Position numbers and translations under genes: made by a program. From NCBI RefSeq assembly GCF_022376445.1, contig NW_025955044.1, forward strand, positions 104,723 to 168,722: a DNA stretch of 64,000 bases, in the 5' to 3' direction. The stretch comes from Fomitopsis serialis. Lineage: Eukaryota; Basidiomycota; Agaricomycetes; Polyporales; Fomitopsidaceae. The first letter of the stretch is position 1. Every line of letters starts with the position of its first letter. The notes under the pieces are model-generated. The model was not told the DNA's origin. It saw only the letters and a list, made by a program, of their open reading frames with translations, and searched no databases. Of this stretch, positions 5,323 to 49,705 are shown piece after piece.

Positions 5323-5345
5323 TACAGTGTCAGCCTGCCCTAAAC
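5323..5345 (+). repeat. terminal repeat of AT-rich element 1
   Basis: This 23-bp sequence contains CAGCCTGCCCTAAAC and recurs on the opposite strand at 36481-36503 with one mismatch. In both places it sits at the switch from GC-rich flank to AT-rich, intron-rich coding sequence, so it probably marks the element's left end. I found no inverted partner at the right end (about 9.3 kb). Confidence 0.75.
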
Positions 5346-5576
5346 TTGAGATGTATATATGTGTTCTGAGATCAACCATGCTTCTCTTTTCTTCCCTCAC
5401 TACTAGCCATCAGCCCTATTGATAAAATCACTGCATGTGAGTTAGTGTGGCACAAGTAGCATATCTTAGATATTCAATCACCTTCATTGCCTTGACAGAA
5501 ACCGAGAAAATGGAGTACATTATGCACATTCACAAACTTGTGCAGCCTATGCTGATCATCCCTGGACAGTGCTGGC

Positions 5577-8500
5577 ATGTTCAAAACCTTCTTCAAGGCT
5601 ACAGAGATCATCTTTGATCCAGCATGGTCTGCTGTGCTACTGTTGTACAATACAGCACCAGAAGGAGGATTGGAAATGTCCTCTTCTTTCCATGTGTACT
5701 TAGATCTGATGTTGACACTTCTGTGCAGTGTTGAGAAGCCAAGTACAGCCCTTTCAGAGAGCCAGAAGCTCAAGCTTCATAAAATTTTCAATGGATCAGA
5801 AGCAAAAGTTGCCTCATCTGATCTGCAATGTATGATTTCCTCAAATGACATGATTGGCTAGCCATATACTGACAATGATGATTCACTCTACAAGACTTCC
5901 AGGATGAAGAGGAGATTGAAGATGAAGATGAAGAGGAACACAAGAAGTTGGAAGAGAAGTTTGAAGAACAAATTGAACAGGATATTGAAGCCTCTGGACC
6001 TAATGTTGTCATGCAGAGTTCCTCAGGGCTTCAAGAGCTAGACTTGGAGTTTGAGTCTGCAGAAGATGATGAGCCAATCTTGACTGAAACAAGTAAGTGC
6101 AATGTGCTTTGTCAAGTATCCAACAGTTGAAACTTGTACTTTTCATTCTATCAGCATCCAAAGTGTTCAATCTACATGCATATGTGTATGTTCCATCACC
6201 TCCATATGACTTGTCTTCTGTGATGCTGTAAGTCATACATTGTCCACATAGTTTGAGAACTCAAAACACTTCAACCACACAGTTATACCAATGACATAGA
6301 GGCAGATGAACTGACCAGTCATTCAGATTCAGGGTCTAACCTCATCAGCACAGACATATTATCATTATGGGGCCTCTGCTACAACATCCAGTGTGGGCTC
6401 TTGATATGCAAGCCTTGCCAGCAAGGGATGCCTCTCTCTCTCATGCATACCCACCTCACTAGGCAGACTTTGACTATATATGAGATGAATGAGGACAAGG
6501 GCTATCAAGAGCTTAAGGATCAAGAGCAAGGGCACAGGCTGAGCATTGGAAATCGAACTGCCTTCATTAAGACAGTGAAAGAGGAGTTGATGAAGTGCAA
6601 TGTGAACCCAGACTCTATCAAGGACTCTGCAACAGCAGATAATTGGAGAAAACTGAAGCTGAAGCCAGATGCTGACTCATCAGGGTTGTCTGAGCCTATT
6701 GAAGGTTTGAAGATCTACCCCAGGGCTTTTTGCTGCAACCTATGTTTAGGGCAGAACAAGCAACCTTTCTGTACCATGACTTCCAAGACAATGAGGACTC
6801 ATAGGCAACATCAACATCCAGGCTGGAAACAGATATCTGGAAATAGACCTAAAGTAGTTGATACAGTTGTCAGATGTTCAATCCAGGGCTTTACTGAGGC
6901 AAATGGATGGGTCTGTTGGTTTGCTGTAAAAGATCCAGTCCTCTCTGAGACCAATCATGTTGCCAACCAATTGACTTACTCCAGTGCTGCAGAATACATC
7001 AAAGCACAGAAGAGACTTTTGTGGTCAGAAGATGACCCAACTGTCCTTAGAAAGACTTTGGATGACAGATTGTATTTGCCCTTCCTGACTTCATCAGGAA
7101 TTTTGGAGTTTACTTCATCCTTTGATCATCAAAGGTTACTAAGCCTCTTTGTCCCTGAGAATGTAAAGGATGGACCAGTTCAACTCAAAAGACTAGCTAA
7201 GGTTGTCAGAGATACTTTCTGGAATGGCTGTAAGATCATCAATAAGCAACATGCTTCTGTGCGCAAGGGAATTATGGGAGACTCAGGGTAAGTGGCCTGA
7301 CCATCACAATAACAATAATCATCAGGCTGACTGCTCTTGTCAACAGGGTAAGCAGTGGCAACAGTCAATTCACAGCTCCCATTTCTGAGGACACCTGGGG
7401 AAACTATGCTACTGTGCAGTTGCACTTCTTGTGGGCTAATTTGCAATACTTGAAGGATCCATTGCAAGCCCTTCAGCAACCAGATAAGAAGCTCTTCATT
7501 TATAACCAAAAGCAACAGACTGCTTTGGAAAATTTGCAGGCTATCTTGGACCATAAGCAGTTTTCTGAGGAGAGAGCTACACAGGCAGTCTATGCAACCC
7601 TCCAAGCTCTGTATTTCCCATCAAACAATGACCCTGCTGCAGTGAACATCTTCTGCAGCCCTGTCATGGTGTTCCTAGCTTGCAGAATGTTGAGTCCCAC
7701 TGGTGGCCATGTTCCTCCAGCTCAAGTCCCTCCATTGCTGGCTAAAGTTCAGTTTGGTATGCGCCTGCAGGGCCTGTACCACATTGCATCAAACCTGCCC
7801 ATAAGCTCAAGTGAGGAGCACAATGGTGATAATCAGTGGTGGAATTGGGTCACAACATTCTTGTCAGAGAATTTAAGTGAGAACAATCTGTCACCATTTG
7901 CAAGTCTCAGAGATTGGATGCACAACTTTACTAGGATAGTGCACCAGATGCCAAGACCAGGCACAATCTCATGGCCTACAGGGGATACATTGAGATTATC
8001 TGGGTACACTATCTCAATGGATCAGTATAAGATGGCTGTGTGCTCTGCCTTGGACTCTCTTGAGGAGTTCATACAAAACAAGGTGCTCCTTGGAGTGGAC
8101 CTGGAGGCTCATGGCATCCACTGCAACTTCTATGAAATGCCAGATGTTGATGTGGAGACAATTGGTTCTGGTCCTTTCTCAACCCCTGATGCTGTGTCCT
8201 TGGATAATGCTGCTTCTGATGCATTCATCAATGCTGTCATGGCAAAGTCTGATTTTCTGGGGAATTGCTCAGCAAATGGCATCACCTGGAACACTGAACA
8301 TGTCATGGAATGGCTGTCAGAAATTTCCAATGCATGGCTAGAACTGCAGCCATTGATTCATATGACTCAAGGGCTCCCAGGAAGAGCAACAGAGGAAGAA
8401 AGGACTAAGATAGTTAACACTGAGGAAACAAGGAGGCATTTGTTTGTTGACAAAGACCTGGGTACCCTGGTATTCAGGCCCAACTATCACAAAGGTATGC

Positions 8501-9081
8501 AAAGATACTCATACTCTTCATTGCCACTCTGACTGATATCTCTCATAGGCATCCATAGGTCAGGAATTCATAAGAACATCATCCGGGTCATACCTCACCG
8601 GATTGCCAAACTAATGTTCATCCTCCTGCATATTGTAAGGCCACTTGAGCTACTGCTCATAGTGAGATATCTCAGTGATCCAGCCAAGAAAGATCAGGTC
8701 CTCCAGGTCTACAAGGAGAACCTCTATGTTTCTCTTGGAAAAGGCTGGGACCATGTGATGCTCTCCAAAGCCCTTCATAGGTGGACAAAACATCATCTTG
8801 GCTTTGGGATGGGTGTTAGGGCATATAGGCACTTTATCACTGCTATTAGCAGGAAGCAGCTTAAACTCCCTCAGTCTGCACTTGATGTACAGAGCTTTTC
8901 ACAAGCTGCAGATCTAATGGCTGGACATTCTGTGAAAGTTTCTGAACAGAATTATGCAGTGTCTCAAGATACGCCCACCACTTCTGCTTCATCGGATCAC
9001 TGGTTCATTGCAGTATGTCAAAGCCTCCATTCATTCTTAGGTCTAGAGACTTCACCTAGCAAGGGACAATCCAGTAGCTAG
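5577..9081 (+). CDS. OrsD/DUF3505-like zinc-finger protein with tyrosine-recombinase-like C-terminus
   Basis: Six exons join in phase: 5577-5829, 5895-6092, 6155-6227, 6283-7287, 7347-8494 and 8549-9081, with introns of 55-65 bp. They give an uninterrupted 1069-residue protein. Residues about 86-115 are very acidic. Two zinc-finger-like units follow: ICKPC...HTHL near 215-232 and FCCNLC...HRQHQHPGW near 322-350, the arrangement of the fungal OrsD (DUF3505) family. The C-terminal exon carries a YRHF motif (about 985), a GHS motif (about 1018) and a following NYAV tyrosine (about 1027). This is the spacing of the RH...GH...Y core of tyrosine recombinases, although the first histidine of HxxR is not evident. 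RecQ helicase, often fused to OrsD proteins, is absent. An upstream exon cannot be excluded. Function as an element-encoded recombinase is inferred. Confidence 0.7.
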
Positions 9082-9390
9082 TCCTGCATGTAGGTTGAGC
9101 CTCCGTGATACAATCAGTCCAGTAGTTGTATATATAGTAATTTTGTGGAATAGATACAGATTGTGATACACTTGCTGCTTTGACAATATGAGATTGATAT
9201 ACTGCCATGCTGTCAATCTGTCAGACAAGCCTACCTCACATAGTCACCTTTCAACATAGACTGCTCTGCTCTTAACATGCGTAGAGCAGACGGATCACAT
9301 CATGTGTCATCAGTACAAGGCCACATACTATTATATCAAGCAACTGACAGCACACCAGTATCCAGGGTGCTGAATGATGCTGCAGCCACT

Positions 9391-10815
9391 CTCGCATGTC
9401 AGACTCGGCGGCGTTCAGCTGTCGACGACAGCCGAGACAGCCCTCAGACGACAACAGGTCGCGAGCAACGGTCTCGGATCCCGCTCGTGCATTCTGGCCG
9501 CCGGATGGGGTGACAGCCGTGTTCGTGCTTGGGGCCTCAGCGAGTTCGAACACCATCAGCTGAGGGAATAACCATATGAGTGGGCTTCGCCACTGCCGAA
9601 CATGGCGACTGACCATGACACTTGCAGCACTTCACGCGCGCACGGTCCCTACCAACGCGAACACGCGCAGGTGATCGCGAAGGGCCGGAAATTTGGCCGC
9701 CATTCGCTGCGGACCCGGACGACAAGCGACATTATTATCTGATAGGGACGACAAGTCCACGTTCCTTAACGGGCATCGTGGACAGGCAGGGTGACAACCA
9801 CTCACCGAAACATCCCGCGGCACGCGTGGTGTTACCAAGGGTGCTGAGAGGCTGGACGCGAGTCGAAGACATAGTTTGCAGGGTCAGCATGCCTATACGT
9901 CCGATCCGCGCTATGCATACTCACCGGTCAGGGCAGTCTGATCAGTTGGGCTAGGCGTTGCCCAGTCAACCTCACACTGCGTCATGGCCACAAAGCATGA
10001 CCCGCTGAGACATGGACGGACATTGAGTGTCGCGCGTGTACGGACGCTGGGTGGATGGTTCGCGTCGACACGCGCATGGGCTGGAAATACAGTGAGCACT
10101 CTGGAGGCGCTCGGGAGGTGCGATGTGCTCACGAGCACCTCGAGGATCATCATGCTCTGTTGGTCGCTATGCACACCTACTCGCCGGATGCTGCGGACAT
10201 GTCCCCGCAACTCAAGACGTCATGCAGGGCCGGTCAATCTGTGTCCAAGCGATGCGGACGGCGAGAGACTATCCACAGCATCGCATCACCAGGTAGGTGG
10301 ACAGGCGTCGCAACTCTCTAGGCCGATTCTGCACACGATGCCACGGTCAGGGCAACAGACGAGGGCCCGCGCCGGATGATACACTCACCGCAGGATCCTG
10401 TGGAGTCTCCAGGACAACACATGGATGGTGGAGGGTCGCAATATGGCAGACAGAGAAGGACAGTGTAGTCAGCGCGTGTCTGCGTCCGATCCATACTGTA
10501 CGTGCTCACCGGTAAGTCGACTCATGCGGGGACTTGCCCAGGGCACGGATGGCGGCCGGGCGTGCTTGACGGTAAGGCGGCCTCAATGGGTGACGACTCA
10601 GACGAGTGGACAGAACCACCGGGACCCGGGCGCACGGGCACGCGGAATTCTGGACAAGAGGTTCAGTGCTCGCACGATGCATGGTTGAGACATGGTCACG
10701 TACCATGACAGATCGTGGGCCCTCGATAATGGAGAGCGCAAGCGATGCACGCACGAACATTTTTGGAGAGAATGTGTACGCGGCGACGACAAACCCAACA
10801 CAAACATGCTCGTTT
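9391..10815. other. intergenic with weak internal duplications
   Basis: No recognised gene. Short related segments containing CACCGGTCAGGGC-like sequence recur near 9920, 10335 and 10505, suggesting an old, diverged local duplication. Open frames here are short and carry no motif I know. Confidence 0.4.
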
Positions 10816-10819
10816 TGAT

Positions 10820-10960
10820 GCAGGGTATGAAGGGCCTCACCGGACAAAAATAACCCGACGTACGTACGTTGATTTTGGTGTTGTTTTTCGAGCGTTGATG
10901 CTGACGTTGCACCATACGTACGTTGATGTTGGTGTTGTCGTTCATGAGTTGAGTTGTTTG
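10820..10960 (-). repeat. TGACAGGT-family repeat, partial copy
   Basis: This segment is the reverse complement of 26325-26480 at high similarity. Both share the ACAAAAATAACC stretch, the GTTTTTCGAGCGTTGATG stretch, and end in GTTGAGTTGTTTG. Here the repeat stops exactly at 10960, and the next base belongs to a Sec14-like gene fragment. In the other copy the sequence runs on into TGACAGGT modules. Confidence 0.75.
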
Positions 10961-10963
10961 CAG

Positions 10964-11634
10964 ATGTGGTTTCACAGGACAGACAAGGAGGGTCGGCCGG
11001 TGAGCATCCAGCAGTACGGCGGGGTGAACATCCCGGAGCTCTACAAGCACATCACGCCGGAGCGGTTCTGGTGGTACATCATCACGATGTCGGAGAGCAT
11101 ACCGCGCGAGATCATACCCACTGCGTCGCGGGCGGTGGGTCACCAGGTCGACGGGACGTTCCTCATCGTGGACTTGAAGGGATATTCGTAAGTCCATCAT
11201 CTGAGTGCCGCGGGCGGGCGGGAGAGGGTATCTGATGCGATTCAACGTCAGGTTGGGTCAGTTCTGGCAGATGAAGGACCTCGTACGCGCTTCGTTTCAA
11301 GTCATGCAAGACCACTATCCCGAGATGTACGTCTCGCCCCGCTCCTTCCACACCTGACCTGCTCGTCTCACCGCCCATCGCCCCAACCCCGCACAGGTCC
11401 GCGAAGTTCTACATCATCAACGCGCCGTGGTCTTTCACCACGATCTGGTCGCTCCTCAAGCTCTGGCTCGCCCCGCGGATGATCGAGAAGATGGACATCC
11501 TCGGCGCGGATTACCAGGCGGTGCTCCTGAAGTATATCGACGCGGAGAGCTTGCCGACGTTCTACGGGGGACGATGCGAGTGCAGCGAGGTCGGCGGGTG
11601 CAAGTGGAGCAAGCCGATGCGAGATGGGAGGTAG
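10964..11634 (+). CDS. N-truncated Sec14-like CRAL-TRIO lipid-transfer protein
   Basis: Three exons (10964-11187, 11252-11325 or so, 11396-11634) join in phase without a stop. They read TDKEGRPVSIQQYGGVN, then LGQFWQMKDLVRASFQVMQDHYPE, and last KFYIINAPWSFTTIWSLLKLWL, followed by EKMDILGADY and LPTFYGG(R)C. These are the successive blocks of the Sec14 lipid-binding domain (phosphatidylinositol/phosphatidylcholine transfer). The CRAL-TRIO N-terminal helical region is missing: the piece begins with an intron acceptor (cag at 10961-10963) directly against the repeat at 10820-10960. The first ATG is therefore fortuitous. The C-terminus stops soon after the FGG box. It may be transcribed from the repeat, but a functional product is doubtful. 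Confidence 0.75.
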
Positions 11635-12479
11635 CATACATACTGTATTGTATGCGCGTCTTCTGGGAGTCATAATCTCGGGCTAGGACACCTATGCTAA
11701 TGGTTCTGCGCATATGGAGGCATAGTAGGGCTACGCAACGGATGGACTCGAACGCAGTGTTCAATTGCTTCCGGCAGCCATCCATAGAGCGCCGTCGCGT
11801 CGCGCCTCTACGCCGAGATGCCTCTCCGGAGCCAGTGAATCGTGATGAACGCGGTTGTGAACTTCTGCGAGACAATGCCCGGCTGGTTATTGTTTTCCTC
11901 GCGTCCAAGCATCCTGAGGGCCCAGCACACTTCCAGTTGGTCTATCAGCCCGAGAGATTTGCGAAGTCGAGTCTTCTTGACACCATACAGTGCGAACGGA
12001 GAGCGGTTGCTCATAACGTTGAGAGGTGCCGGAAGGAATCACTGTTTAAAACCTCGAGTATACGCAGGCTCAGGCAGCGGGGCCGATGGAAGCAAGAGGC
12101 TGAAAGCGGTGATCGACGCTCGCGCCGGCCCTGGCGGAGCGTGACTGTGGCGGCGCCTCGCGTGTTGTTGAACTTGTTCTTCACAACCATCGTACACCTC
12201 CAGAACTGTGATACTTACCTCTACACGTCGAGCTGTACGTACGAGTGCGAGACTAGGTCTAATCAGTTGAGTGTTATTTCGTCAGACTCGGAGTGCCAGC
12301 TTCTGTCAAATACTGACCGAGCTACATAATAATATGCAACAGGAGCGAACGCGACCTTACGCTCGAGTTCCCGGGCCCAACAGTTATCGAGTTCTGCTCC
12401 GGTCCCCAGAAATAGTTCACGAGTAACATTCTTATACATCATGAAGCCCTGCATCTTGGAGGCTGATCTCGACTCCATA
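11635..12479. other. intergenic, unassigned coding-like ORF
   Basis: A minus-strand frame at 11808-12014 reads like real protein (a helical, charged stretch) but I do not recognise it and it has no supporting neighbours. The rest shows nothing identifiable. Confidence 0.3.
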
Positions 12480-13390
12480 CCGAATGAACTTACGAGGGCG
12501 TTCAAGGACTGCGCAACAACTTGGAAGTACCGCTCCGGCTCCTCGAAGAACGCTAGGTGAGAACTCTTCGAGGACTGCGCCCACTTCGCCTTCGAGATCT
12601 GCCAGAACAGAGGGCCGACGACAAAGTTTCTCACCTCATCGTCTGCGCCATTTATCACCAGCGTCTCCTGGGAGATCTTGTGCAGGTCGTCGAGCATCGA
12701 CCAGGCATCGACCAACTCTTGATGGTTCCGGTGATCTAGAACTCGGATGCACCGTTCCTGGACACAGTTAGCAGTGGATGGTGAGTGCAGAGCATCACCC
12801 CACATGATCGAATACAACGTAGGGCCTTCCTCCTTCGCGCGGAGCGTTTCCTGTGCCAACTTGGGGACCGGGACGACTTGACTTTACAGCTCGCGAAAGT
12901 CCCATCCCCTTCCTTGACTGTCCGTCGTGCCCTCCCTTCAATCTCTCCGGCGTCTCTTGCACATCGTTCGGCACGCCCTTGAGCAGCTCCTAGGCTAGTC
13001 TATTGCCACAGCTCCATCGGCAACGGCGTCCCTACCAAGACCATCCGCTTCAGTCCCTCCTTCGCGAGCCCGTGAGCGTCATGCCCTACGAATGGCCACA
13101 CAAGTCGAAGCTCTCTGCAATCCTAAGCCTCTCGACGAGGTTCGCAAGCGCCTCGGCAAACAGCTGTACTCTCCAGAACTCCTTCGGCCTCTTGCGGAGG
13201 TGCGTGCTCTGCCCGATGCCGAGCTGGTCGTAGCATATGACGGGGCACGTTCTATATGTAGCTCATAGTGCGTCGTCATAACTTGATGTCCGAGGCCAGG
13301 CCTGCCGGCGGCCGTGTAGAACGAGGGCTGTACCACGTCTGGTAGGTCTTGCAGCTGATCGTGAAGTCTTGTATTTTCAAAATCATTCAC
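12480..13390 (-). pseudogene. proline iminopeptidase-like alpha/beta hydrolase pseudogene
   Basis: Reading leftwards from 13330, a GRPGLGHQ segment stands where the family has HGGPG. Next come PVICYDQLGIGQSTHL and KRPKEFWRVQLFAE, then LVERLRIAESFDLCGHS followed immediately by an in-frame stop where the family has WGG. The nucleophile is the Ser of GHSWGG, and it is the last residue before the break. Beyond it frames change repeatedly. Near 12680-12560 the C-terminal part returns: KISQETLVINGADDEV, FFWQISKAKW, SSHLAFFEEPERYFQVV, containing the acid and base (His in SSH) positions of the catalytic triad. Family members hydrolyse N-terminal proline or amino-acid amides. At least one stop and several frameshifts make this copy dead. 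Confidence 0.8.
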
Positions 13391-14064
13391 AGCGCGGATG
13401 TGCGCATTGCGTTGCTGGGCGGAATGCGCGAGTATTTATGTGCAGTACTTAAGACCTGGCAACGCTTTCTCTCAGCGACGTTGCGCGAGGCAGATCTACG
13501 GTGCCATCATGTCCGTCTTACTCTGTCAGAAACCCGATCAGAGTACTGGTTGTCCCCGGAGAGTTCGGAGCTCTGTTGGGTACGCTTCTGCTTGTTCTTG
13601 CTGAATCATCGAAGCATCGCTCCCCTTGGAGTGTCCGAGAGCGCCCCGCAGCTTGAGCGCTATGAGACAGAAGAAGGGGGCCGATTCGGAGTTCTTGAGC
13701 ACCGGTCGCGCGTAAGACCTTGCACCGCTCTCGTATAGAGACGCAGTTCGCTGTCAATGGCAGTGCTATGCAGAGACTTTGTGAGGGTAAATCGTTTTCA
13801 GCAGTGCACCGGCAATCGATCTCTCGGTACCAGTTAGGTGAGTAGTTCGGCCTCCCTCTAAATTCCGTCGGGCGCGCTGATGTACCAAGTTAGCTACGGT
13901 ACTCAGACAGGGTGCGAGCGCGGGCCTGTCATTGTGATGCATCATCGGCCGGACGACGCATCACATATATTGGCCTCGACATGATGTGCTGAGCAGCACC
14001 GGTGCCCGGTCAGTGATACTGTCAGAGTCGCTCTCATCGCACGACAGATCGATTCGCACCCCCA
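13391..14064. other. intergenic, no recognised gene
   Basis: Only short frames without motifs are seen. Confidence 0.4.
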
Positions 14065-15818
14065 TGTCTGCCATTGACACTGCGTTGACGGGATATGCCA
14101 GGTATGATCCCAGCCCAATCCAGCCTATCGCAAGCCACTCCTCAGTGACAATCGCCCCATTCCAGCTCCGTTCATGATTACAACGCCCTCGCCACAACGG
14201 GTACGTTTCGAGTTCATGTTTCGGTACACGCCCTGATGACTTCATTACTCTCGCAGTGCTGCTCTGTTATGACTGTCTCCTGAATCTCGATAGAGAGATT
14301 CCGCTGATCTGGTCCCGGAGGCCGACAATCATCTCCGTGTCTTATGTTCTCTGCCGATATTCCATGGTGCTTTACGCAGTCCTAGGCTGGGTATCGTCTT
14401 CGTCTAATTTGGTACGATAGCTCCGGTGTCCACCTCACCGGAGGTCACTCCTAATACTACTTTGTAAACGTACGTTCGACTCCATTCTACGTTCACCTCA
14501 CTTGTGCTGAACAACATCGTAGATGTACAGCCGTATCGAACTCTCGGCATGTCCTTGGTGTGCTTTTCTCTCCCGTCGTAACAGGTGTGCTCTCAGATTC
14601 GTCTTGACCACCACGGATGCTGATCAATCTGACTAGTTTCTGCATATGTCAAAGTCTATGCTGTCAGTAGACGTGACTGGGGGTGGACGTCCATCGCTGT
14701 TATGCTGGGGATTGTCTCTCTCGCCACACATATCGTAAGCCTTCCCGGCATCATTAACTCGGCTTGCTTCATCTTCTCCTAGTTTCTCTATGCGATATCC
14801 ACCTTCAAGATAGCCACACTTCCCGATTTCGTAGAGTCTTGCATCGAAACGAGAGGTATCTCCGATGTCGAATTAAAGAGGTGCGCGTCATTATCGATTG
14901 TTCAACCCTTTATATATGAACCGGGACAGATGTGAGCCTCTGTCAAGCTACAGTCTCAACTCTGACCTGATTGTCTGCATAGTAATCATTGCGACACGCA
15001 TATGCGCCATCACGTCCGACCTCACCGTAATTGCAGCGATAACATATCACACGAGAGGGCAAGGGATCCTCAGTCAAGGCCTGCCCCAGAGCAGACCGTC
15101 ACTCGTACTCCTCATACAGAGAGACGGTGAGTGATGCTCGGCAGCTCAGGAGAACGAGCCTTCGCTGATTGTCCCAATTAAGGATTTGTGATGTTTGTGT
15201 AGGTGCTAAAGGGAGCTTTCGATGGCTTTAGATCGACAATGATGATGTGTCTAGGTTCTTCGCTGTCCTCAATATATTCGCCGTTGCCCTCTACTTCACA
15301 GTAGTAAGCATCTACGCTCGTCCGTCACTTAATCATGCTGACAACAGCCGCCATAGCCGTACGGCTGGGCCTTGACGATATTTGTTGACCCGTGAGCTTC
15401 GCTGCGCCGATACCGCTTGTCTATAGATCTGACATCCACTCATTGCGCCATCTCCATCATCATCTCACGCAGCGTCTTGCGACTCCTGGCAGCGACCAAC
15501 AACAGCGTGCCAGAGGACAGCGATGACATCGAAACGCTCCACTTGTCCTTCGTCCAACCAGAACAGCTGCCCACGGAGCTGTCTAGTGTGGTCCACTACA
15601 CCGCGAACGTGTTCAATGCAGTCGTCTCGCGAATTTTGGCAGAACCGGACGATGTGGAGGACACTACGCTTGCCCCGACTGATAGTTCATGCGAACCCCC
15701 GGAAGTGAACGGAGATGGGTGCACAGCAGGTGAGTACAAGCAGCCTACGCTACCGATTGATCTGACTACTGTTATGGCGCATCTAGAGAGGGATGAGGTC
15801 GAAAGGTACTCGTCATAA
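14065..15818 (+). CDS. DUF6533-family multi-pass membrane protein, possibly degraded
   Basis: Successive short exons carry the order of blocks typical of this Agaricomycete family. They are LLCYDCLLNLDREIPLIW (about 14262-14315) and YVLCRYSMVLYAVLG; then VKVYAVSRRDWGWTSIAVML (about 14650-14705); a 1495x-151xx block ending LLIQRDG (15100-15128); and VLNIFAVALYFTVV (about 15265-15305). The final exon gives an acidic tail (15480-15818). Several hydrophobic helices alternate with small loops, fitting a seven-helix-like integral membrane protein of unknown function. The start at 14065 (MSAIDTALTGYA) is a guess. The first intron lacks an obvious acceptor, and exon boundaries between blocks are not all resolved, so this may be a pseudogene. 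Confidence 0.5.
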
Positions 15819-18549: not shown

Positions 18550-18583
18550 CGGACTGTTCATGACATTCGTATATACAGTAAAT

Positions 18584-24060: not shown

Positions 24061-24130
24061 GTACGCCCACGCGACGCCGTGCGTGTGATAGGCCCGTCGC
24101 GCGACATGCTCATCTCTGTCTTCCATGCTT

Positions 24131-25413: not shown

Positions 25414-26193
25414 TTAATTCGATAAGACGAGGAGGCTCGAGACGAGTGAGGTGATGAGTGCCGCCGAGCCCCGTCTTGTGACCTCAGCGAACCAGTGTAC
25501 GCCAGTTGGAGCGAGAGGCGGGAGCTGTGTGAGAGATGCGAGCGTGGGCAGGAGGCTCTTCGCTGTCAGCTGTGCGCAGGGGAATCTTAAAGGGCTGCAC
25601 ATTGAGCAGGCATGGGGAGCCGCATTCACCTGAGCACACTGAGAGTCAACGTCATTATCGCCGGCTATGGTGATATTGAGGTCATACAAGAGCCTGAGGC
25701 TGTTCTGTAGGGTGCCGGCACCACGAGTTCCGAGTGCTAGGGAGAGCGTACGCCACTCGGAGTGCATGGTGGATGAACTTGTTCTTCGAGGAGGAGGTCG
25801 AGGACGCGCCGCGAGATGCGATGAACCCGAATCCACTCAGCATCCCGCCTATCACGACACGACGTAGGGCAACCTCGAGCAGACCATCCACATGTCTGTG
25901 ACCTGTTCGACACGCACGGCCTCGCCGTCAAAGGACACGAAATAGAGCCAGGTTACGTTCACGAATTGGGGCGATCGCGCGCGGATCTCAATCGGTCAGT
26001 CCGCCTTCGCGGCCGTGACGCTCGCTGCCTCATCGAGGTCGCGCACGGTCGTGTAGAACCGCGCGCTCGTCGAGACGACACCGGAGTACGCAGGGTCGAG
26101 GACGAGGTATCCGCCTGTGAGAAGGACCTTGCCAGGGGCATAGACGACGGTCGTTGGTGGTGAGAGTGATGGGTGCGGCCGCTCGTCTCTCAC
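25414..26193 (-). pseudogene. ERG8: phosphomevalonate kinase (ERG8) N-terminal fragment
   Basis: From 26193 leftwards the start reads PPTTVVYAPGKVLLTGGYLV then LDPAYSGVVSTSARFYT, the N-terminal signature of phosphomevalonate kinase (GHMP family, mevalonate pathway to sterols). Next come FVNVTWLYFVSF, EAVRVEQVTD, KNKFIHHALRVA, LRLLYDLNITIAGDNDVDSQ and, at 25440-25415, GSAALITSLVSSLLV. The last is the remnant of the ATP-binding motif GLGSSAALITSL, here preceded by RR in place of the first glycines. Frames shift several times, and the C-terminal half of the enzyme is missing. A TGACAGGT-family repeat abuts its 5' side. Confidence 0.8.
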
Positions 26194-26194
26194 G

Positions 26195-26870
26195 AGCGGT
26201 CATGGGGCCATTATGCATTGTTGGGCTCGTCAAGCGCGTCGGGCGCAGGCGACGAGTGACGAGAGACGACGTGGTTCGGACGGTGCACGGACCTGTCAGG
26301 TGACCTGTCAGACAACCTGTCGGACGACCTGTCAAACAACTCAACTTATGAACAACAAGACCAACATCAACGTACGTACGGTGCAATATCAACATCAACG
26401 CTCGAAAAACGACACCAAGATCAACATCCGTACGCAATCCGTACATCAGGTTATTTTTGTCTGGCGAGGCCCTTCATAGGTGATGGTGCTGGCAGATTGG
26501 CGGTGGATAATGGAGAGAGGATCGGGCACGCAAAAGATGCGTCACAAATCTCGTAAAGGGCTTCACAGTCTCTTCGTGTCCGTCTCAGCGACAGTGGGTC
26601 AGGACGGGGAGCGTTAGAGACTCACTGTTACATTAATGTAGGCCTGTTCACGGTTCAGTGCATGTGGCGGATGCCCAGCACTTGCCGCGCAACCTGTCAG
26701 ACAACCTGTCAAACAACCTCACAACTTCAACGTCAAGAACAATTCGTGTAACACGACTTCAACACAGGGTTCGACGTCTCAAGATCTCAGGACTAACAAA
26801 CAGAACAGCTTGACGCCGTCAACATCAACATCAACCCGTTTTTTCGGCTAGATCGGCTAGATAGCGATTG
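26195..26870 (-). repeat. TGACAGGT-family repeat copy, longest
   Basis: Read in reverse it gives the order CCGGACAATCGCTATC, GTTGATGTTGATG, two TGACAGGTTGT modules (26690-26722), CTCCATTATCCACCG and GAAGGGCCTCGCCAGAC. It continues through GTTTTTCGAGCGTTGATG and GTTGAGTTGTTTG to five TGACAGGT modules (26340-26291), and ends at CATGACCGCTCG, next to the ERG8 fragment start. It unites parts seen separately in the copies at 10.8, 18.6 and 22.6 kb, so it is the best view of the element's full structure. No protein-coding gene is seen in it. Confidence 0.75.
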
Positions 26871-27949
26871 TCCGGCGGTGCCCTCCTGTCATGGTGCGTA
26901 CACGCACGCTGTTTCTTTTCTGTCACGGCTGCATTCATTCTCCCCTTGCTCTTTGTTGCCACTTGCATATATGCTTGATTACCCATCCGCTTGTCGGCTT
27001 TCGTGACGTACAACTTGAATATGATCGTACACAATCCGACTCGTGATCGCACGACAATCATGCAAGTCCAGTTTTCAGTACTTAAGTGGATCACCCCGAT
27101 TACGACGAGAGCGGGATTGGGAGCCTGAGGCGAGGGCGTGAAAAACGAAGAGGGTCGAAGGTACGCCCCTTACTGGTATTGGACATGCCTATCATTGACG
27201 AACAGTACTTGTTCAGTCGCGTCTACTGACTCACACACTCCCTCGCGCGCACACCCACTGGCATTGATGTGCTCGCTCATTCGCCGAGTGACTCGACTGC
27301 ACATTTACCTATCTGTTTGCCTGCACATCCACCCGCCCACTAGTGCGAGCACTCGCGAAGATCATAGCCTACGCACTCACCCATCTACCGTCGTGCTCAC
27401 CCGCTTGCTCGCCGGCCTGTCCGCTCGCTACCCACTCATTTGGCTGCCTGTGTAAGTAACCTACCCATCCGTTCATCCACCCGCTTGGCCGACTACCCAC
27501 TGTCTCTTCGACTGCAGTACTTATTGTCGGGGTAGCTTTCATACGTCAATGATCCAATGTGATTGGTGATGACAAACCTATGCAAATGTATACCAGTTGT
27601 AGTAGTACGACGATCTCAATGTTAATTGCGTGCACTGGGCTGTCTGAAGTCGTGCAGCTTCTGAGACTCTGAGACATTTTAGATAATCCATGTAATTAGA
27701 GGAATTGGTAGCATTTAGACCCGTTTAGACGTCTCAGGGTCGTTAGACGCTGTCAGACAAACCAACGCTTTGCTCATTTGCTTCGGAGAGCGTCTTCAGA
27801 AACACGGACGATGTTGTGTACAGAGGTCTTTTCGACAGTGAGAGACTGTCGGTGGGGGATACGGGCGTCGTGGGAGCTGTGTCCGAAGACGACGAGCTGT
27901 CTAAGGATGAAGACATCGCGAAGAAGGTCGGTTTAATGTTGGAGAGATT
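26871..27949. other. intergenic, C-rich low-complexity stretch
   Basis: Between about 27230 and 27510 the plus strand is rich in degenerate CTCGCTCGCC/CCACCCGC motifs, similar in style to the arm at 43.3-43.9 kb. No gene recognised. Confidence 0.45.
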
Positions 27950-29700
27950 ATGAGCTGTGCGGACAGTGGAAGCCGCGGAGTTGGTGCGGGACGATGCCCA
28001 GCACGCCTTCCGTCCCCGGCGCGGGTTCGCCGCCTTGGTTCTGCGGCGGAGGGGCGGGGCGTTACGCTAAAAGCCCGAGCGATGAGAGGAGATCACGGCT
28101 GTCGCGCGCGAACGTACCCGTCAGGGTGTTGCAGGAGCGAGACGAGCACCTCCACCGCGGTCGACGCGGCGATCGACGCCAGGCCAGGCCGAGTGACGGT
28201 GCACATCTGGTCGAGCGTCCTGTCAGTCAATGACTGCACACACGGGGGTCAGCAGGTTTCCGCGACGCATGGAGCCGCCAAACACGCACGTCCGCCGGCG
28301 CGACGATGTCGTTGCAGTAGTAGCACCCGAGGCGGTCTCCCTTCGCGAGCGTCGCGCGGACGCCGTGGCGCATGACGAGGAAGGTGTCGAACCCGAGCGC
28401 GGCGTTCATGACGACCTTGCCCTTGGCCGCGCCCGCGAGTCCATGAGCAGGAAGAAAACGACGTCGTGCTCGTCCACGAGCTTCTCGAGCGCCGCCACGT
28501 CCTTCTTCGCCTGCTCGACGGACGCGGGCGGGATCGGGTGGCCCGGCGTCGGGATGCTCAGGTTGTGGCCGGAGGAGTTCTGTCGCGGGCGTAGGGTGAG
28601 ACTCGACAAGACGGGCAGACGCCGGGGTGGTACGTACGACGCCAGGGAAGATCTTCTTGAGCCGCTCGGCCGCGCACGCCGCCTTGGGCTTTCCGCCGTT
28701 CAGGCAGTCCTCGAACTCGAATAGCGGCTGGCGGACGGGGTTCGAGAACGAGACGCGGGCGGAATCAACGAAGGTGATGGTGCGAACGCCCCAGCCCTGT
28801 CGCAGATGAACAATGTCAGCAGGATGCCAGATGCCCGATGGGTGGACGACGAACCATGAGCGTGCGCGCCACATAACACCTGAGCGTGCCGGCACCCAAG
28901 AGGAGACACCGCGTGTTCGCGACCTTCTCGAGGTCGAGCGCAGGCAGGATGCGCCACCGCATGAGCTTCAAGTTCAGGTCCACAGCCTGGTCCGCGAGCC
29001 TTTCACATAGACGCATCAGGATACACCCCACCCCACATCTGAGCGGATAGCTCACCTCGTCGGGTCCATCATCGGCGCCAAGTCGGCCACGCGCGGGCCC
29101 AGCTTGCCCTGGACGTTCTTCTCCCAGCCCACCGCCGCGGGCTCCTCCGCCTTCGCCGCGCCGTCGCCGGTGCCCTGGGAGACGACGCCGAAGCGGGTCT
29201 TGAACGGTGCGCTGGAGGGGCGCTCGGAGTCGCGCCAGCATAGGATGCGGTACGACGGTGCGGGGTGGAGGGTATGGAGGTAGGTCAGGAGGTTGCGGAG
29301 TGGCCAGCCGGGGTTGGAGGGCGTCGCGGAGGGGTCGAGGAAGGCGATGGTGCGTTGCTCGGGGGCGACATTGGCGAAGAATTGGTCGTACTCTTTAACG
29401 GGGGCGATCTCGGGCTCGTCGCTGCCTGCCTTTGGCCGGATAAGGAAGAAAGCTCGTGGAGCAGCCAGTTGAGTCGCTTCAATCGCGGATAGCTGAATGC
29501 GTGGTTCGTCAGTGCTCACATGAGAAATGACATGAACCAACAGACGACGTACGAAGGAGTCGCTGAATTCTTCTGACGCGGCCTTCCAGTCTTCCTGGAT
29601 CTCCCATGCAGGCTTGACTACGAAGGCAGGGAAGGCGAATCAGTAGTAGCACTTGTACTTCTTGATGGACTCGTACCCATCCGATGGGAGGGTGTCGCAC
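27950..29700 (-). pseudogene. ATG7: ATG7 (E1-like autophagy activating enzyme) pseudogene
   Basis: Atg7 activates Atg8 and Atg12 for autophagy. Reading leftwards: FAFPAFVVKPAWEI (29630-29590), with a TGA just before it where Trp is expected; then [18 protein letters not shown], and after an intron [20 protein letters not shown]. The nucleotide-binding GAGTLGC has Arg for the second Gly. [58 protein letters not shown] and GCYYCNDIVAP follow, then [20 protein letters not shown] with the catalytic Cys codon at 28201-28203, and last GVLGIVPHQLRGF (28000-27965). About 80 N-terminal residues and the last 70 or so are absent. A stop, the loop-glycine change and frame breaks near 28.4 kb make it inactive. 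Introns are retained. Confidence 0.85.
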
Positions 29701-30298
29701 CCTACCACCGCACACCTCCCTAACGTCTGGGGCATTCTGATAGAGGCGCCCCGCCCGGTCAACTTTTCGCTAAGCGCCCTGATATCAGCCTGATCGCAGC
29801 CCCTCGCCCGTCCTTATCGGTCACCTTACAGTAGGACTTGGGACTTCGGCCTTTGGACTACGGAAATTTCCAACGATAAATACTGTCATAGATAAATACT
29901 GTCATACATTTCCTCCTTTTCGTGGCCACCATGTGTCGTCAGCGCGTCTCAGGTGGCAGCCTGGCAGGTCCATGTATTTCGCGGGCCGCACTCACGTGGA
30001 CTCCATGTGCCAGCCAACTCGAGGTGTAATGTCATTCACTCGGAGACATATGTACAATTGAACGCCGCAGACCCGTAGCGGAGCACGGGCATCGGCTAGT
30101 TACAGTACAATCCTCACGCGTATACACTACACATACTACAATACCCTCGAACGGGACGCAGGCCTGGGCGGCGCGTTTAACTTTAAACGCCCGCCCATGC
30201 ACAGGCCGGCGTCCGCCGCGTCCAAGCCGCGTCTTAGCACGTTGTTTGCACTGCGGACGAACCGCGTTGTACGAAGCGCTCACATGGTACTTACATTG
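29701..30298. other. intergenic, no recognised gene
   Basis: Contains a short 11-bp tandem duplication (AAATACTGTCATA, 29878-29905) and otherwise nothing identifiable. Confidence 0.4.
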
Positions 30299-30590
30299 TA
30301 AGGGCGTGTATATTATTACGGCTCTAAGTCGGAGCTCGTAACATAGGGAATGGTATTCCTTTGTTCGGGCTCACATTTCGAATGTTCCCGAAATCGGGAA
30401 TGTAAGTGCTATGTTCTTCCTATGTTCCGAAATCACGTCATGTTCTAGGCATGTACTTCCCATGTTAGGGATTTTCACTTAGTGGCTTACTAATATACAC
30501 GATCTTGCAATGTTAGGCCCATGTAAGCGCCTCGCACAATCCGGGTTGTCCGCAGTGTTGCTTGCTGCGGTTAATAAATGCTGAATTCAT
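30299..30590 (+). repeat. possible solo LTR
   Basis: Starts TGTAAGGGCGTGTATATTATTA and ends near GAATTCATCA, so it has TG...CA borders. It carries a TATA-like box near its start and an AATAAA signal at about 30571. The middle is built from degenerate ATGTT/ATGTAAG motifs. No clear target duplication or second copy was seen. Confidence 0.3.
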
Positions 30591-32201
30591 CATCATCATC
30601 CTCCTCCTCATCGCGGCTACTGGCGTTGACTGCGTGAGCTCCGCAATGTCGAACCGCATACACTATTGCGCCTTGCGCGACGATTGGTGTGACTGTGACG
30701 TGGTGCGTACGTCGCTCCCTGTTGAGCTGGCGAGTCTCAATCGTCACAATGCGGCGCAGGGCCTACGTTTTCTACTATTGAGGTGCTACTTACAAGCAAA
30801 ACTAAGCATTGGTAGCGCTCTCATCTCTGGAGCAGCTCCATCTAGTCGAGCCTTTTGGCGTATCGTCCCGCGCGCCGAATGTTGTTCAGTCGTCCGACTC
30901 GTACGAGCATCCTGACTTGGAGCTCTCGCAACTCGGCCGACCTCCTACGGAGCGTGAGGTCGGCCTGAAACTTGGTGGTGAGCTTTTGTTGTTCCACGTC
31001 CTTCCAAATACACTGGCACGGTCGAGTACTTTGTGCACAGTGATGAATCTCGGCGCGCAATTCTGGCTGGCGTGTCGGAAATGCTCAGCGTCGGTCCCCC
31101 GCTGCTGTCAACGATCTCGCGTACTTGATACTAGTGCGGGCCGTCAGCTGCGCTCACGACAGGAGTATGTCGCGTTGTTCTCGCGCTCTTTCGACATTCT
31201 CTTCATTGAAGCCTACATGCGCATCCGTCATTCCAGGGAGATAGGACGCCGACATTGGCCAAGAGACGTGACCCGTCCTTGTCATCAGGGACATGAAAAT
31301 GTCCTCTCTTGGGTGCGTACCCGCACACATTGTTACATATTTGCGTTGACTCGTTGATGAAGCCAGTAATGACTCATCCCCGAAATCGTGCACTTCGCCT
31401 TGGTCTGTGTGACACGCAAAATTCGATATCGATGCGTCGACCCTGGGTCATCTGGCGACTCAGAGCACCCTTGACGTCGTCCGACCCGCCCTTACGGAAC
31501 TTGTCCTTTCGCTCAAGTGGTCTAATCCCATGGCAACTGAACTGCTCACAGCCTCGTACATCTTGGTACCGCTCGCACCGAAGCTTCAATATGTATTCGT
31601 TGGGTACTACCTGTTGAAAGCAGGCACTACTGTCTTCAAGTTGTCAAGTACGCCCGTGCGTCCTCGTTATTTTTCATGATCCAGAGTACGTCGGGTCGTT
31701 AGGAACGGTGTTGCCCAGTCCTCTGCAATACGCCTGCCTGAACTTCAAACCTTGATAACAGCATTGCGTCAGGTAGCTCATTTACTCCTTCACACGTGTT
31801 CCAACACTGCTCTCACGTTATGCTTCCAGCTATTAGCGTCGTCAAACAACGTTCGAGCGACCATAGAGGTGCGAGTGCGGGGACGACCTATGTTGCGAGT
31901 CGGCGCACGGTGGCTAACCCAACCCGACAGGTCTTCCATATAAAAAGGCGAAAATGAGATCGCAGTCTACTTGTATCGAGGTAGGTACGTCCTTATACGA
32001 TGTGTCAAGTTGACCCCCTCGCTTTGATAGTACAGTGTCGAGCAGGATCTACTTCACCAGATGAAGTTGCCATCCTCGCCTTTGCCGTCAGTCCAAACCC
32101 TATCGCTGTGCCGCCGATGAAACACTATATCTCAAGTCTTCCGCGTCATCCATACATCGATAAACCAAACTGTAAGGCGCCTTCTTCCTCGTCTGAGGTA
32201 T
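30591..32201. other. intergenic, possible upstream part of RdRP pseudogene
   Basis: Plus-strand frames at 30809-31357 and around 31466-31620 (ALTELVLSLKWSNPMATELL) look coding and lie in the right direction to be a decayed N-terminal part of the polymerase pseudogene that follows, but I cannot match them with confidence. Confidence 0.3.
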
Positions 32202-35016
32202 ATGTACGCTTACATCGAACGGCCAACCCGTGGACAACAGCTCCCGAACCGCTCGTTGCAGCTTCAACCGAAAGCCATGGATGCGATCCGTACATGCACC
32301 GTGACGGTTCGTGCCTCTCAGGTTTATTGGAATACCGCGAGCGCAGACCAATCTCGCGAGTCGTCCATCCTCCCTTGGCTACTCTATCCACCGTCATTCG
32401 AGGCTGGACCCCCTGACCCAGAGCGCGTTGACGAGGATGACACTGATGGTCTCTTGCGAGGGCTTTCCATGCGCCAACTGCGAGAAGTGCTCGGTAACCG
32501 GTCGTTCAAGATCCAACGAAAGAGACAAGGAGCATTTGACGATACCCACCTCCCCGTCGCTCCTTACACCTCGATCGCCGTTCGCCTGGTCTGCAACAAT
32601 GCGTTTGACGTTGCGATATACAAACGACTGTGCCGAGTTGCCCACCTTCCCGTCGACTTATCTCTCTACCCTGTCGCGCACCCATACTTTTCTCCGATTC
32701 AGTGCGGGCGGCCTTTCAACGATGGACAGCCGCGTTGTATCTCGCCGTCGCCTTCCAACTCGAGGTGCTGCTGAGCAACTGGCTCGTGCACATGCGGGAG
32801 ATTTGCAGCTTCTGCGTCCCAACGTCGACCATATGGTCTCACGCTACGGATCAGACGTAGCGAGCACGTTACTCGCTGACCTCAAGTCACGACTAGAGGC
32901 GCGAGTATGGTATGGCGATGGAGTCGATATCGACGAAGATGCCGTCAAGAACCTGCTCGCCGCTTGGATTCGACAGTTTAGCCGCAAAGCTCGTGTCCAG
33001 CCACTACCCCATTCCGATCTCTTTATGTGCAACCACCTCTACATAACAACCAGCGCGTTCGTTGCGGACGGGCCATCTCCGGAGCGATCGAACAGAGTTA
33101 TTCGCCGATACTGGGATCACAGGGACTGTTTCCTTCGTGTCCACTTCACTGGTGACAACCAACTCGCGTATCGCTACGACGCAGAAATCAACCTGCAAGA
33201 ATTGATCGACCGACGCGTGAAACACTTCCTCCTCGAGGGCGTTTCTGTAGCTGGCCAGCGCTTCGAGTTCCTCGGGTATTCGCAGTCTGCCCTCAAGAGC
33301 CACTCGTTTTGGTTCGTGAACCATTCAGGGACACCGATGGTCGAACTATCAACGCGACGACGATCATTCATGGGCTCGAGTCCTTCGCAGACAACCCGTA
33401 CGACCCCCAGCTCATCTTCTGTCCCGCTCGATATGCTGCTCGTATCTCACAGGCATTCAGTGCCACCGAGTCGTCGATCGCGGTCGCAGTGGAGGACAAG
33501 GAGATCATCGACGACATCAAGGACAGGATAGGGACATACTCGTTCACTGACGGGAATAGTACGATGTCGCTCCAGGTCGCACGAGACATAGCGGTCGACC
33601 ATTGGTCGACTAGCGGTCGATGAGCCGAGTCAGACGTGCCTGGCGAGGCTCCATTCCTCGTGTCATACAAGTGCGTATCGCTGGATCGAAAGGGATGCTC
33701 CATGTCGACCATATACTGGAAGGCGGAAAGATACGCTTGCCCCGCTCTATGGTGAAGTTCGCGGCTCCCACCCCGAATAGCATCGAGATTGCGCAGGTAT
33801 TCGAGAAGCCATCCCCGTTCTACCTTAATCGACCGATGATCATGATTCTGGAGGGCCTCGGGGTGCCGTACGAAGTCTTCCAGAGGCTGCAAGACGACAC
33901 GGTCCTTACGACCCATACGCTCACGGAATCGCTGGCGAACTCTGGATGGCTGCTCGAGATGCACGGGCTAGGTAGCTCGTTTCAGCTTCCATCTACGGTT
34001 CACCGCCTCCATCAGCTCGGAATCTCAGTTGCCGAGTTGAACGCGGTTGGCTATTGGCAGCGAGCGACGACGTTCGCGGTCAACCATGTACTGCGAGAGC
34101 TCAAGTCTCGTGCCCGCATCCCAGTACCTGGTGGGTGGACCCTGGTCGGGGTCGCAGACGTTCATGGCCAACTACGCGAAGGCGAGATCCACGCTCGTGT
34201 AAAGCCCACAAGCGGACGCGAGGTGTACCTCGAGGAACCTACACTGATCACGCGCTCGCCCGCGATTCATCCAGGCTACATACAGGTCGTACATGTGATT
34301 GGCAAGCCACCGGAGGGGTCGGATCTTGCCAAGGGAGACTTGAATAACTGCATTGTATTCTCGACTCGAGGTGCGTGCACCGGAGTGCTACACCAGTGTG
34401 AAAATAAATGTAACCACAGTGGATAATGCAGGTGAAAGGCCGTTACCGTCCTATCTCGGAGGTGGAGATCTCGATGGAGACGTGTACAATGTCACTTGCG
34501 TACCGCAGGATCTACTCCCTCCAGTTCACCGACTTCAAAGACCCGCATCGTATAGCCCTGCGACACGCAAAATACTTCCACAACCGAGTACCATGCGCGT
34601 TCATCATCAGTGACGTGCGTCGCAATGACCTTGCTCTGTAAGTCAACTCACATTAGCCTCCACTAGAATGTCGGCATTATTGCATCAACGTGGCTGATCC
34701 TCGCCGACAGAGCAGGGATCTTCGACCTGGCACACTGTCTCCGGCTCGCCGAGCTGCACAACGCCGCAGTCGACTACCCGAAGCTCGGGCACACTTGCGG
34801 GTTCTCTCGGTGCTGCAGTACCTCAGTAGTTACCTCCAATGGGCTGAGCCAGCATGTAGCCAGCGGAGAATCCGACCGTGGAGCATGTGCCCGCTGGCAA
34901 TCGGTCAAGCCCAAAAGAGTGCGCGCCTCCGCCCTACCTGTCTGGCGGGTGAAACCCATGTGAGCAAGCAGCTTCGTGAAACGAGCCCGGAATTGTTACC
35001 AGCCATAATTGCATAG
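32202..35016 (+). pseudogene. eukaryotic RNA-dependent RNA polymerase (quelling/RNAi type) pseudogene
   Basis: Blocks of the cell-encoded RdRP family that makes double-stranded RNA for small-RNA silencing appear in order. They are HLPVAPYTSIAVRLVCNN (32547-32600), ADLKSRLEARVWYGDG, NHLYITTSAFVADGPSPERS (33032-33090), NRVIRRYWDHRDCFLRVHF, FLGYSQSALKSHSFWFV (33269-33320), AARISQAFSATESSIAV, TYSFTDGNSTMS, QVRIAGSKGMLHVD and HPGYIQVVHVIGKPPEG. The catalytic loop LGGGDLDGDVYN is intact, with its Asp triad at 34467-34481. The intron 34368-34430 splices cleanly. Frames shift at about 32700, 32800, 33318 and 33610, so no full protein is made. The normal C-terminal KPDW region is eroded and the gene stops where AT-rich DNA begins. 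Confidence 0.85.
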
Positions 35017-35319
35017 ACATGATGAAGTATATACTGCAGGTGATTGAGTAGTTCATGATGCATTGTCTATGAATTTGCATGATTAAGGAAACAAAATTAC
35101 ACTTAAGATGCAGTTCTCTTCAGGGGCTTGACTGGCCATTATTCCCATAACATATTGAAGAGACCTGATTGTGTACCAGCATTGTATACCAAGCACAGGT
35201 ACCACTTTCTATTGAGACATTTTCTGACTACTGAGAACAGTGCACAATCACACTGAACCCTACACAGCTTGGAGATCTGCCAATCCGTGGGGTGACTGAA
35301 TTATTTTTCCTGATGATCA

Positions 35320-36372
35320 CTAGGATCCTGATGAACTCCCAATTGCAGCCCCTTCAATGTTCTCCCATTTCATGTTGCTTAGACAGAAATCCAAAAGCTG
35401 AAAGTTGCTCAATATGTGTTATTTGAAATGTTGATGTATGGATACAACTGTTGAACACATACCTTCTGAGGCATCTTTTGCCTGCAAATGCCAAGGATTT
35501 GTTTGGCAGAATTCCCATTTTTGCTGTGTATATGCATGAAAATGATAGCCAGTGACATGCTATAAGTGCTCACAGAGTAAAGTATACCATGTGTGAACCA
35601 TTCTCCAGTTGGATGGTGTCCACCTTATCAACTCTCTCCTCCCATTGACCATAAGTCCCTTTTGTAGTGTCAGTAGACAGGGCCATGTCTTTGACTACAT
35701 TCCATTCAACCTTTTGAGAACACTTCTGTTGTATACACTTACCTGCTGAGACATGGCTGATCTCCTCGCCCTGTATCTTCTCATCCTAGTCTCAGCAACT
35801 CTTCATAAGACATCTGCAGGAACAACCCACCTCTTCAGTAGAGGATTCCTTGGTCTTGCTATGTGTGCTCTGGTTCTTCATTTTCTCTTTCTCTTTCTCT
35901 TTTTCTTTTCCTTTTCCTTTTTCTTTTCCTTTTCCTTTTCCTTTTCCTTTTCCTTTGCTTTGCTCTGATGCTTGTTTCTTCTGTTCATACTCTTCAAGCA
36001 ATGCTGGAGAGTTTCTAGACCAACACAATCTAGACATATCTGTTGTATAAGGCTAGAATAAAGACCTACAGGTCATGAACAGCAACCCAGCTGTCATCCT
36101 TAGGGCCATAGCCTTCCCATCTGACATAATATTTCTGCACACCCTGTATGTGCAGTCAGATGTCAGCTATCTTGTCTGTAAGGTTCTAGATCCATGGCCA
36201 CTAGGCCATGTTATGTCCATACAGTATCAGAGATACACACATTCATCACCTTATCCTTCAAAATTGCCTCTACCACACAATCTTCATTGTCACTGCTAGT
36301 AGATTGTTCATCTGACTGGGAGCTTTCCTCCTGGTATGACTTTGTTGGTTGTTTCCTGCGACTGTTTGCCAT
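35320..36372 (-). CDS. HP1-like chromodomain and chromoshadow-domain protein
   Basis: Six exons (36372-36250, 36143-36070, 36014-35831, 35785-35574, 35523-35463, 35397-35320) join in phase to an intact 243-residue protein. Introns are 45-106 bp. The chromodomain spans about residues 30-80: DCVVEAILKDK, KYYVRWEGYGPKDDSW, LNSPALLEEY. Of the three methyl-lysine cage aromatics, Trp50 and Tyr53 are present but the first is Cys32. A lysine-rich KGKGKEK linker (about residues 84-110) is encoded by the TTTTCC microsatellite. The chromoshadow-like domain, about 175-232, includes WEERVDKVDTI, MVYFTLKNGNSAKQI and MPQKLLDFCLSNM. HP1 proteins bind H3K9-methylated chromatin and dimerise through the shadow domain. 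The gene is AT-rich, unlike its neighbours. The exon 3/4 junction is the least certain. Confidence 0.75.
35877..35957. repeat. TTTTCC/TTTCTC microsatellite
   Basis: A pyrimidine run of imperfect TTTTCC and TTTCTC units. On the minus strand it encodes the KGKGKEKEK linker of the HP1-like protein, in frame and without a stop, so it is constrained coding sequence. Confidence 0.9.
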
Positions 36373-36480
36373 TGATCCTGTGATGTTCTGTAATAAGTTC
36401 TACCCAGACACACAAACAACAAGAGAGATACAGGTTCCAAAAGAGTGAATGCTGTTTCCTCTGTTTTTGAGTGTGATCTG

Positions 36481-36503
36481 GTTTAGGGCAGGCTGCCACT
36501 GTA
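36481..36503 (-). repeat. terminal repeat of AT-rich element 2
   Basis: Reverse complement of 5323-5345 with a single mismatch (G for T ahead of CAGCCTGCCCTAAAC). The flanking bases outside differ between the two sites, as expected for independent insertions. Confidence 0.75.
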
Positions 36504-49695: not shown

Positions 49696-49705
49696 ACGGT
49701 GCTCA

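Follow-up and report, generated by a model that had tools for sequence, protein, structure and literature searches.

The window analysed here is a 64-kb stretch of DNA from the wood-decay polypore Fomitopsis serialis, namely the final 64 kb of contig C790 in an assembly of 66.2 Mb (labels such as C2, C14 and C50 denote contigs of this assembly). It carries two AT-rich blocks in which CpG dinucleotides are almost absent, a left block at 5323..9392 (forward strand) and a right block at 34995..36503 (reverse strand). The left block contains e1, a gene for an OrsD protein with putative tyrosine-recombinase-like motifs, while the right block contains e2, a gene of the HP1 family. The outer end of each block is formed by a 23-bp sequence, present in inverted orientation on the two sides, and about 25.6 kb of GC-rich DNA lies between the blocks. 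We propose that the blocks may be the two ends of a single DNA transposon that was later split.

CpG-free blocks and their 23-bp termini

The CpG observed/expected ratio (o/e) of the left block, measured over 5323-9400, was 0.061 at a GC content of 0.44 (12 CpG per 4078 bases), and that of the right block was 0.047 at a GC content of 0.415 (3 CpG per 1509 bases). By comparison, the ratio was 1.12 in the left flank, 1.13 in the interval between the blocks (9393..34994) and 1.005 in the right flank, and the GC content was 0.42-0.44 in the blocks against 0.55-0.60 in the surrounding DNA. TpG plus CpA exceeded expectation 1.52-fold in the left block and 1.50-fold in the right one. The low GC content of the blocks is thus a consequence of CpG loss. 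The nearest CpG outside the termini were found at 5312, before the left 23-mer, and at 36530, after the right 23-mer, and the outer limits of both CpG deserts coincide with the 23-mers. At the inner edges dense CpG is back from 9393 (left block) and 34988 (right block). Outside the blocks no 500-base window of the 64 kb had a ratio below 0.65, and the lowest value among 48 windows from 12 arbitrary 2-kb stretches of other contigs was 0.81.

The left terminus (5323..5345, forward strand) reads TA followed by CAGTGTCAGCCTGCCCTAAAC, and the right terminus (36481..36503, reverse strand) is its inverted copy with one mismatch in 23 positions. The original prediction had placed a common 23-bp end exactly at the switch in base composition of both blocks, and this was confirmed. 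Similarity between the two termini continues weakly for a few bases past the 23-mer, and both outer sides of the pair carry TA. The termini are therefore proposed as terminal inverted repeats of 21-23 bp that start with CAGTG and are flanked by a TA target duplication. As hAT transposons make an 8-bp target duplication, it should be pointed out that the 8 bases outside CAGTG are unlike on the two sides, so that a hAT-like duplication is absent.

The 23-mer might also have been a motif scattered at unrelated places in the genome. A scan of the assembly with its 20-base core at up to three mismatches gave six matches, two of which are the pair in the window. The matches on C340, C2 and C90 are copies of one GC-rich repeat unrelated to the termini, and the match on C734, with three mismatches and otherwise dissimilar, was put down to chance. 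Hence only two credible copies of the core exist in the 66-Mb assembly, and both are the termini described here. No inverted 23-mer pair with one mismatch or fewer arose in 15 order-1 Markov simulations of the 64-kb window, and all further inverted 23-mer pairs in the real window lie within long inverted repeats at 10.8-26.8 kb.

The OrsD gene of the left block

The e1 gene (5577..9081, forward strand) was modelled by hand with six exons (5577-5829, 5895-6092, 6155-6227, 6283-7287, 7347-8494 and 8549-9081), which are joined by GT-AG introns, are open throughout and encode 1069 aa. The left 23-mer lies 254 bp before its first ATG. The deposited model B0H18DRAFT_957770 (685 aa) is a partial model of e1; as judged by eye, the C-terminal exon of the 1069-aa reading is missing from it, as are portions of exons 1 and 4.

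The OrsD match of e1 alone was below the Pfam threshold (23 against a cut-off of 26.6 bits). When e1 was aligned with two distant relatives encoded on C612 and C490, OrsD was matched in all three proteins, with a best value of 7.1e-13. From each relative, pieces of about 800 residues align with e1 at 21-23% identity. They are OrsD proteins, the reading frame of which continues, by eye, into a P-loop stretch that we take to be RecQ-like. A set of Cys/His positions together with R856, R986-H987, H1019 and Y1028 is conserved in e1 and both relatives. Aligned by eye, this R, RH, H, Y pattern, presumably the motif of tyrosine recombinases, suggests that the C-terminus of e1 is tyrosine-recombinase-like. 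Neither the GCR1_C DNA-binding domain of CryptonF nor a RecQ helicase domain was among the Pfam matches of e1.

The HP1 gene of the right block

The e2 gene (35320..36372, reverse strand; model also made by hand) encodes 246 aa in six exons (36372-36241, 36143-36070, 36014-35831, 35785-35574, 35523-35463 and 35397-35320). Its model is open with GT-AG introns, and the right 23-mer lies 131 bp before the first ATG. Both a chromodomain (Pfam PF00385, 4.9e-10) and a chromoshadow domain (Chromo_shadow, PF01393, 1.8e-08) were matched above the cut-off, and the best relatives of e2 among solved structures are HP1 proteins. Proteins of this family ordinarily take part in the silencing of transposons.

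The host has an HP1 gene of its own on C778, in a 2-kb locus of normal CpG content (o/e 1.02). It was recognised among the nine loci read out of 76 chromodomain matches and was likewise modelled by hand; since the protein search with e2 missed it, further diverged HP1 genes may exist. Overall identity between e2 and the host HP1 is 31%, with the middle of the host model guessed. For each of the four introns that could be aligned, position and phase are identical in the two genes: one of phase 0 lies within the chromodomain, one of phase 2 comes after it, and the chromoshadow domain holds one of phase 2 and one of phase 0. The fifth e2 intron, in the linker, has no counterpart for comparison because the host linker intron was not resolved. 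The four matching introns indicate that the origin of e2 was a fungal HP1 gene with introns and not an mRNA copy.

The chromodomain of e2 is altered at what we take to be the methyl-lysine cage. W53 and Y56 are retained, while the first position is Cys31 in place of the Tyr of the host HP1 and CBX5. The three-aromatic cage of a canonical H3K9me reader is thus incomplete, with two of three aromatics. In the chromoshadow helix, e2 has a Cys where the host has a Tyr, and the next tryptophan is retained.

In a protein database search, e1 and the alignment of e1 with its relatives matched only the partial model of e1 itself, and e2 matched nothing; this search requires common 5-residue words, and a lack of relatives in it says little. 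Neither block was found a second time in the assembly at the DNA or protein level (genome-wide match counts for the blocks are lower bounds, and for bases 6201-8539 of e1 the search covered the protein level alone). The blocks had been predicted to belong to an element family, a view which was not supported, as the two distant e1 relatives (22% identity) were all that was found.

A young CpG-free transposon family in the same genome

Of 284 windows at 40 loci off C790, a non-random sample with partly overlapping loci, just two had a CpG o/e below 0.3, and both fall in one insertion on C334. The next-lowest window (0.49) lies within the relative of e1 on C612. The insertion (C334:371795-372545) is a non-autonomous transposon of 741-758 bp with the ends TAGTGTTTGAAAGTCC, which we term hAT-type from its ends and its 8-bp duplication. 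At least 25 matches to it are listed in the assembly, eight of them at 97-100% identity to the query. Both ends were exact in 7 of the 12 loci read, and a perfect 8-bp target duplication flanks five of these seven copies. Their CpG o/e was 0.02-0.15, against 0.85-1.24 in the flanks. This family, young yet almost CpG-free, is a positive control: in this genome, a lack of CpG is compatible with recent mobility and does not imply a foreign source. A CpG desert can therefore serve as a simple marker for some of the mobile DNA of this genome, and it exposed the hAT-type family unsought.

The interval, the flanks and other features of the window

The GC-rich interval contains host gene fragments and is proposed to have arrived by one or more later insertions. 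One fragment (28230-29639, reverse strand) derives from the autophagy gene ATG7, with ATG7_N and ThiF matches. Another is a copy of an RNA-dependent RNA polymerase (RdRP) gene (about 32777-34790, forward strand), which adjoins the inner flank of e2. Relative to its copies on C14, it is broken off at 34790, 205 bases short of the right block; the two C14 relatives, in mutually opposite orientation, continue past the break. On its left, e1 is flanked by the end of a transporter-like gene, which has a weak, sub-threshold MFS match and relatives on C181 and C50.

Elsewhere in the window, a Plavaka transposase gene was found at 52387-55417 (reverse strand; CpG o/e 1.04). By eye, none of the 17 inverted repeats listed around this Plavaka element (52-55 kb) resembles the 23-mer. 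Two direct repeats, each about 1 kb long (48690-49704 and 60713-61720), lie 12 kb apart, are 81% identical and are possibly old long terminal repeats. A tandem repeat of units of about 250 bases, 98.8-99.4% identical, occupies 301-1059.

One split element or two insertions

These observations are best explained by a single DNA transposon, about 5.6 kb long, of which each block represents one end; we assign this reading a probability of about 0.5. Such an element would be bounded by terminal inverted repeats, with CAGTG ends flanked by TA, and its cargo would be two convergent genes, the OrsD/recombinase-like e1 and the HP1 gene e2. The latter would come from a fungal, probably agaricomycete, genome and would have kept its introns on capture. 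The element lineage would then have shed nearly all of its CpG while its coding capacity was kept, and 25.6 kb of GC-rich, CpG-normal DNA would later have arrived between the two ends. As neither e1 nor e2 was found to encode a transposase, the element presumably moved via its TA-flanked CAGTG ends by means of one encoded elsewhere. The site before insertion would read ...GGGAACTG TA TAGTCTG... A split element predicts the observed pattern: the 23-mers are inverted and outermost with TA outside both, the genes converge, the CpG statistics of the blocks are near-identical, and the inner edges are unrelated. One element is therefore favoured over two.

The original prediction had instead seen two insertions with common ends and different cargo. 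They would be separate elements of one family with a common 23-bp 5' end, for example asymmetric elements of a Crypton-like or rolling-circle type with unrelated 3' ends, inserted independently and oppositely 31 kb apart. Each block indeed has one 23-mer 5' of its gene, e1 has tyrosine-recombinase-like motifs, and Cryptons, according to PMC3212892, have no inverted repeats. However, a second common end would be expected if the blocks were two insertions of one family, and neither a shared nor an inverted 3' end of the two blocks was found; nor did a search for a second terminus at the inner edges find one, its five scores being equalled by 11-57% of null windows. This, too, favours one element. 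Moreover, the direct repeats at the edges of e1 and of e2 are 6 bases at most, the assembly yielded no third copy, and a single-copy pair in mirror orientation within one 64-kb window would have to be a coincidence. We thus regard two separate elements as a serious but rather unlikely alternative.

A foreign origin, which had also been suggested for the blocks, is not supported. Horizontal gain of AT-rich DNA from another lineage would account for the GC contrast with the surroundings, and e1 and e2 have no close protein relative in the searched database. Since CpG loss, seen in the young hAT-type family as well, explains the low GC, a foreign source is not required; the database result carries little information, for the reason given above, and the HP1 introns match those of the host. 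Other agaricomycetes may share these introns, which would leave room for a donor within the class, and on balance we consider horizontal transfer improbable. Even less probable is that e1 and e2 are ordinary host genes, each present once, which share a promoter element and are CpG-free because they lie in methylated chromatin. The position of the 23-mers upstream of both genes and the lack of a second copy would suit this, but another host HP1 exists at a CpG-normal locus, the deserts stop abruptly against CpG-normal DNA, and no further credible copy of the motif occurs in the assembly. The inverted 23-mers also enclose the whole 31,181 bp, which would be expected of a giant transposon of 31 kb with the gene fragments of the interval as its original cargo. 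This was rejected, with hardly any probability left to it, because the interval is CpG-normal while both ends are CpG-free; the truncation of the RdRP fragment about 200 bp from the block edge speaks against it as well. In sum, of what had been predicted, the blocks do look like mobile DNA with a common terminus and with OrsD/recombinase-like and HP1-like genes, whereas foreign origin, two insertions and an element family are not supported.

Several points weigh against a split transposon. The flank match at TA amounts to two bases, no empty site with joined flanks was found, no further copy of the DNA directly beside the blocks occurs in the assembly, and at the inner edges the search for the target duplication of a nested insertion gave only three common 6-mers, roughly the chance level by estimate. 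No recombinase match to e1 came from profile searches of Pfam, NCBIfam and PDB, a single-sequence structure model of its exon 6 failed (pLDDT 40.6) and was not used, and a DDE transposase is absent from the Pfam matches of e1 and e2. The models of these two genes were made by hand from the genomic sequence. As the Plavaka element is CpG-normal, CpG loss is not shared by all transposons of this genome. Finally, section 4.2 of PMC12730594 reports no detected hypermutation in Agaricomycotina, which disfavours a rapid mutational cause of CpG loss.

Possible cause of CpG loss and possible role of the HP1 gene

Nearly all CpG was lost from the blocks while coding capacity was kept, perhaps through deamination of methylated CpG in silenced transposons. 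The loss would then have been slow and under methylation. Masc2-type methyltransferases have been tied to CpG-biased C-to-T change in the transposons that some basidiomycetes carry (PMC4352252), and CG methylation in Agaricus bisporus is almost confined to transposons (PMC12730594, section 4.2). The report of no detected hypermutation in Agaricomycotina, given above, argues against simply carrying the Masc2 link over to F. serialis. A RIP-like decay of the blocks was rejected in view of the open reading frames of both genes.

The HP1 of the element might act as a decoy that pairs with the host HP1 and weakens silencing, or alternatively as a guide to heterochromatin. A decoy is favoured because one cage aromatic is lost; the Cys in the chromoshadow helix, if harmful to pairing, would count against it. 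Taken as a whole, a DNA transposon with a captured intron-bearing fungal HP1, intact, CpG-free, strongly diverged and with a damaged cage, that interferes with HP1 silencing as a heterodimer decoy, is a tentative proposal with the odds against it.

Comparison with known systems

If the blocks are one element, it resembles Tc1/mariner in having terminal inverted repeats (one pair, 22/23), and differs from it in that e1 and e2 gave no DDE transposase match. The OrsD, recombinase-like and RecQ-like proteins of C612 and C490 share with e1 the conserved Cys/His positions as well as the R, RH, H and Y pattern, whereas e1 lacks the helicase stretch and is CpG-free. We take these proteins to resemble the subtelomeric RecQ helicases of fungi. 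In the portion available of a paper on such helicases, no domain beyond the helicase core is reported (PMC7473861). MarCry-1_FO, a Crypton-mariner fusion, is comparable to the proposed element in that its short inverted repeats, of 16 bp, enclose a gene of recombinase type and are accompanied by a TA target duplication (PMC3212892); here, in contrast, there is one copy, the recombinase is recognised by motif only, and neither a mariner transposase nor GCR1_C was found. Cryptons proper are described in the same paper with short terminal direct repeats, unlike the scattered edge 6-mers and inverted 23-mers of this locus.

Like HP1, Swi6 and the CBX proteins, e2 has a chromodomain and a chromoshadow domain; it departs from them in Cys31 at the first cage position, in the Cys of the chromoshadow helix and in being encoded in CpG-free, transposon-like DNA. 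The anti-silencing factor of Arabidopsis VANDAL21, which we take to be VANC, is a protein unrelated to HP1. A transposon-encoded anti-silencing factor, as described for VANDAL21 in PMC8756742, is by analogy the role proposed for e2.

The closest parallel may be the capture of silencing factors by transposons, which is already known for TET/JBP. According to PMC12730594, DNA transposons of mushroom-forming and other fungi, among them Kyakuja, Zisupton, Plavaka and IS3EU, captured TET/JBP dioxygenases, DNA-methylation genes that are mostly undisrupted and are argued to aid escape from silencing. The candidate here differs in that the captured gene is an HP1 with host-type introns, in an apparent DNA transposon that is single-copy and in which no DDE transposase was found. 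The main text of PMC12730594 does not contain the words HP1, chromodomain or CpG, and our literature searches, the coverage of which left out most subscription journals, found no report of a transposon with a full HP1 gene. If the proposal is true, a transposon-encoded HP1 would be the histone-mark counterpart of TET/JBP capture on the DNA-methylation side. It would extend gene capture to a reader of H3K9 methylation and provide a testable anti-silencing candidate.

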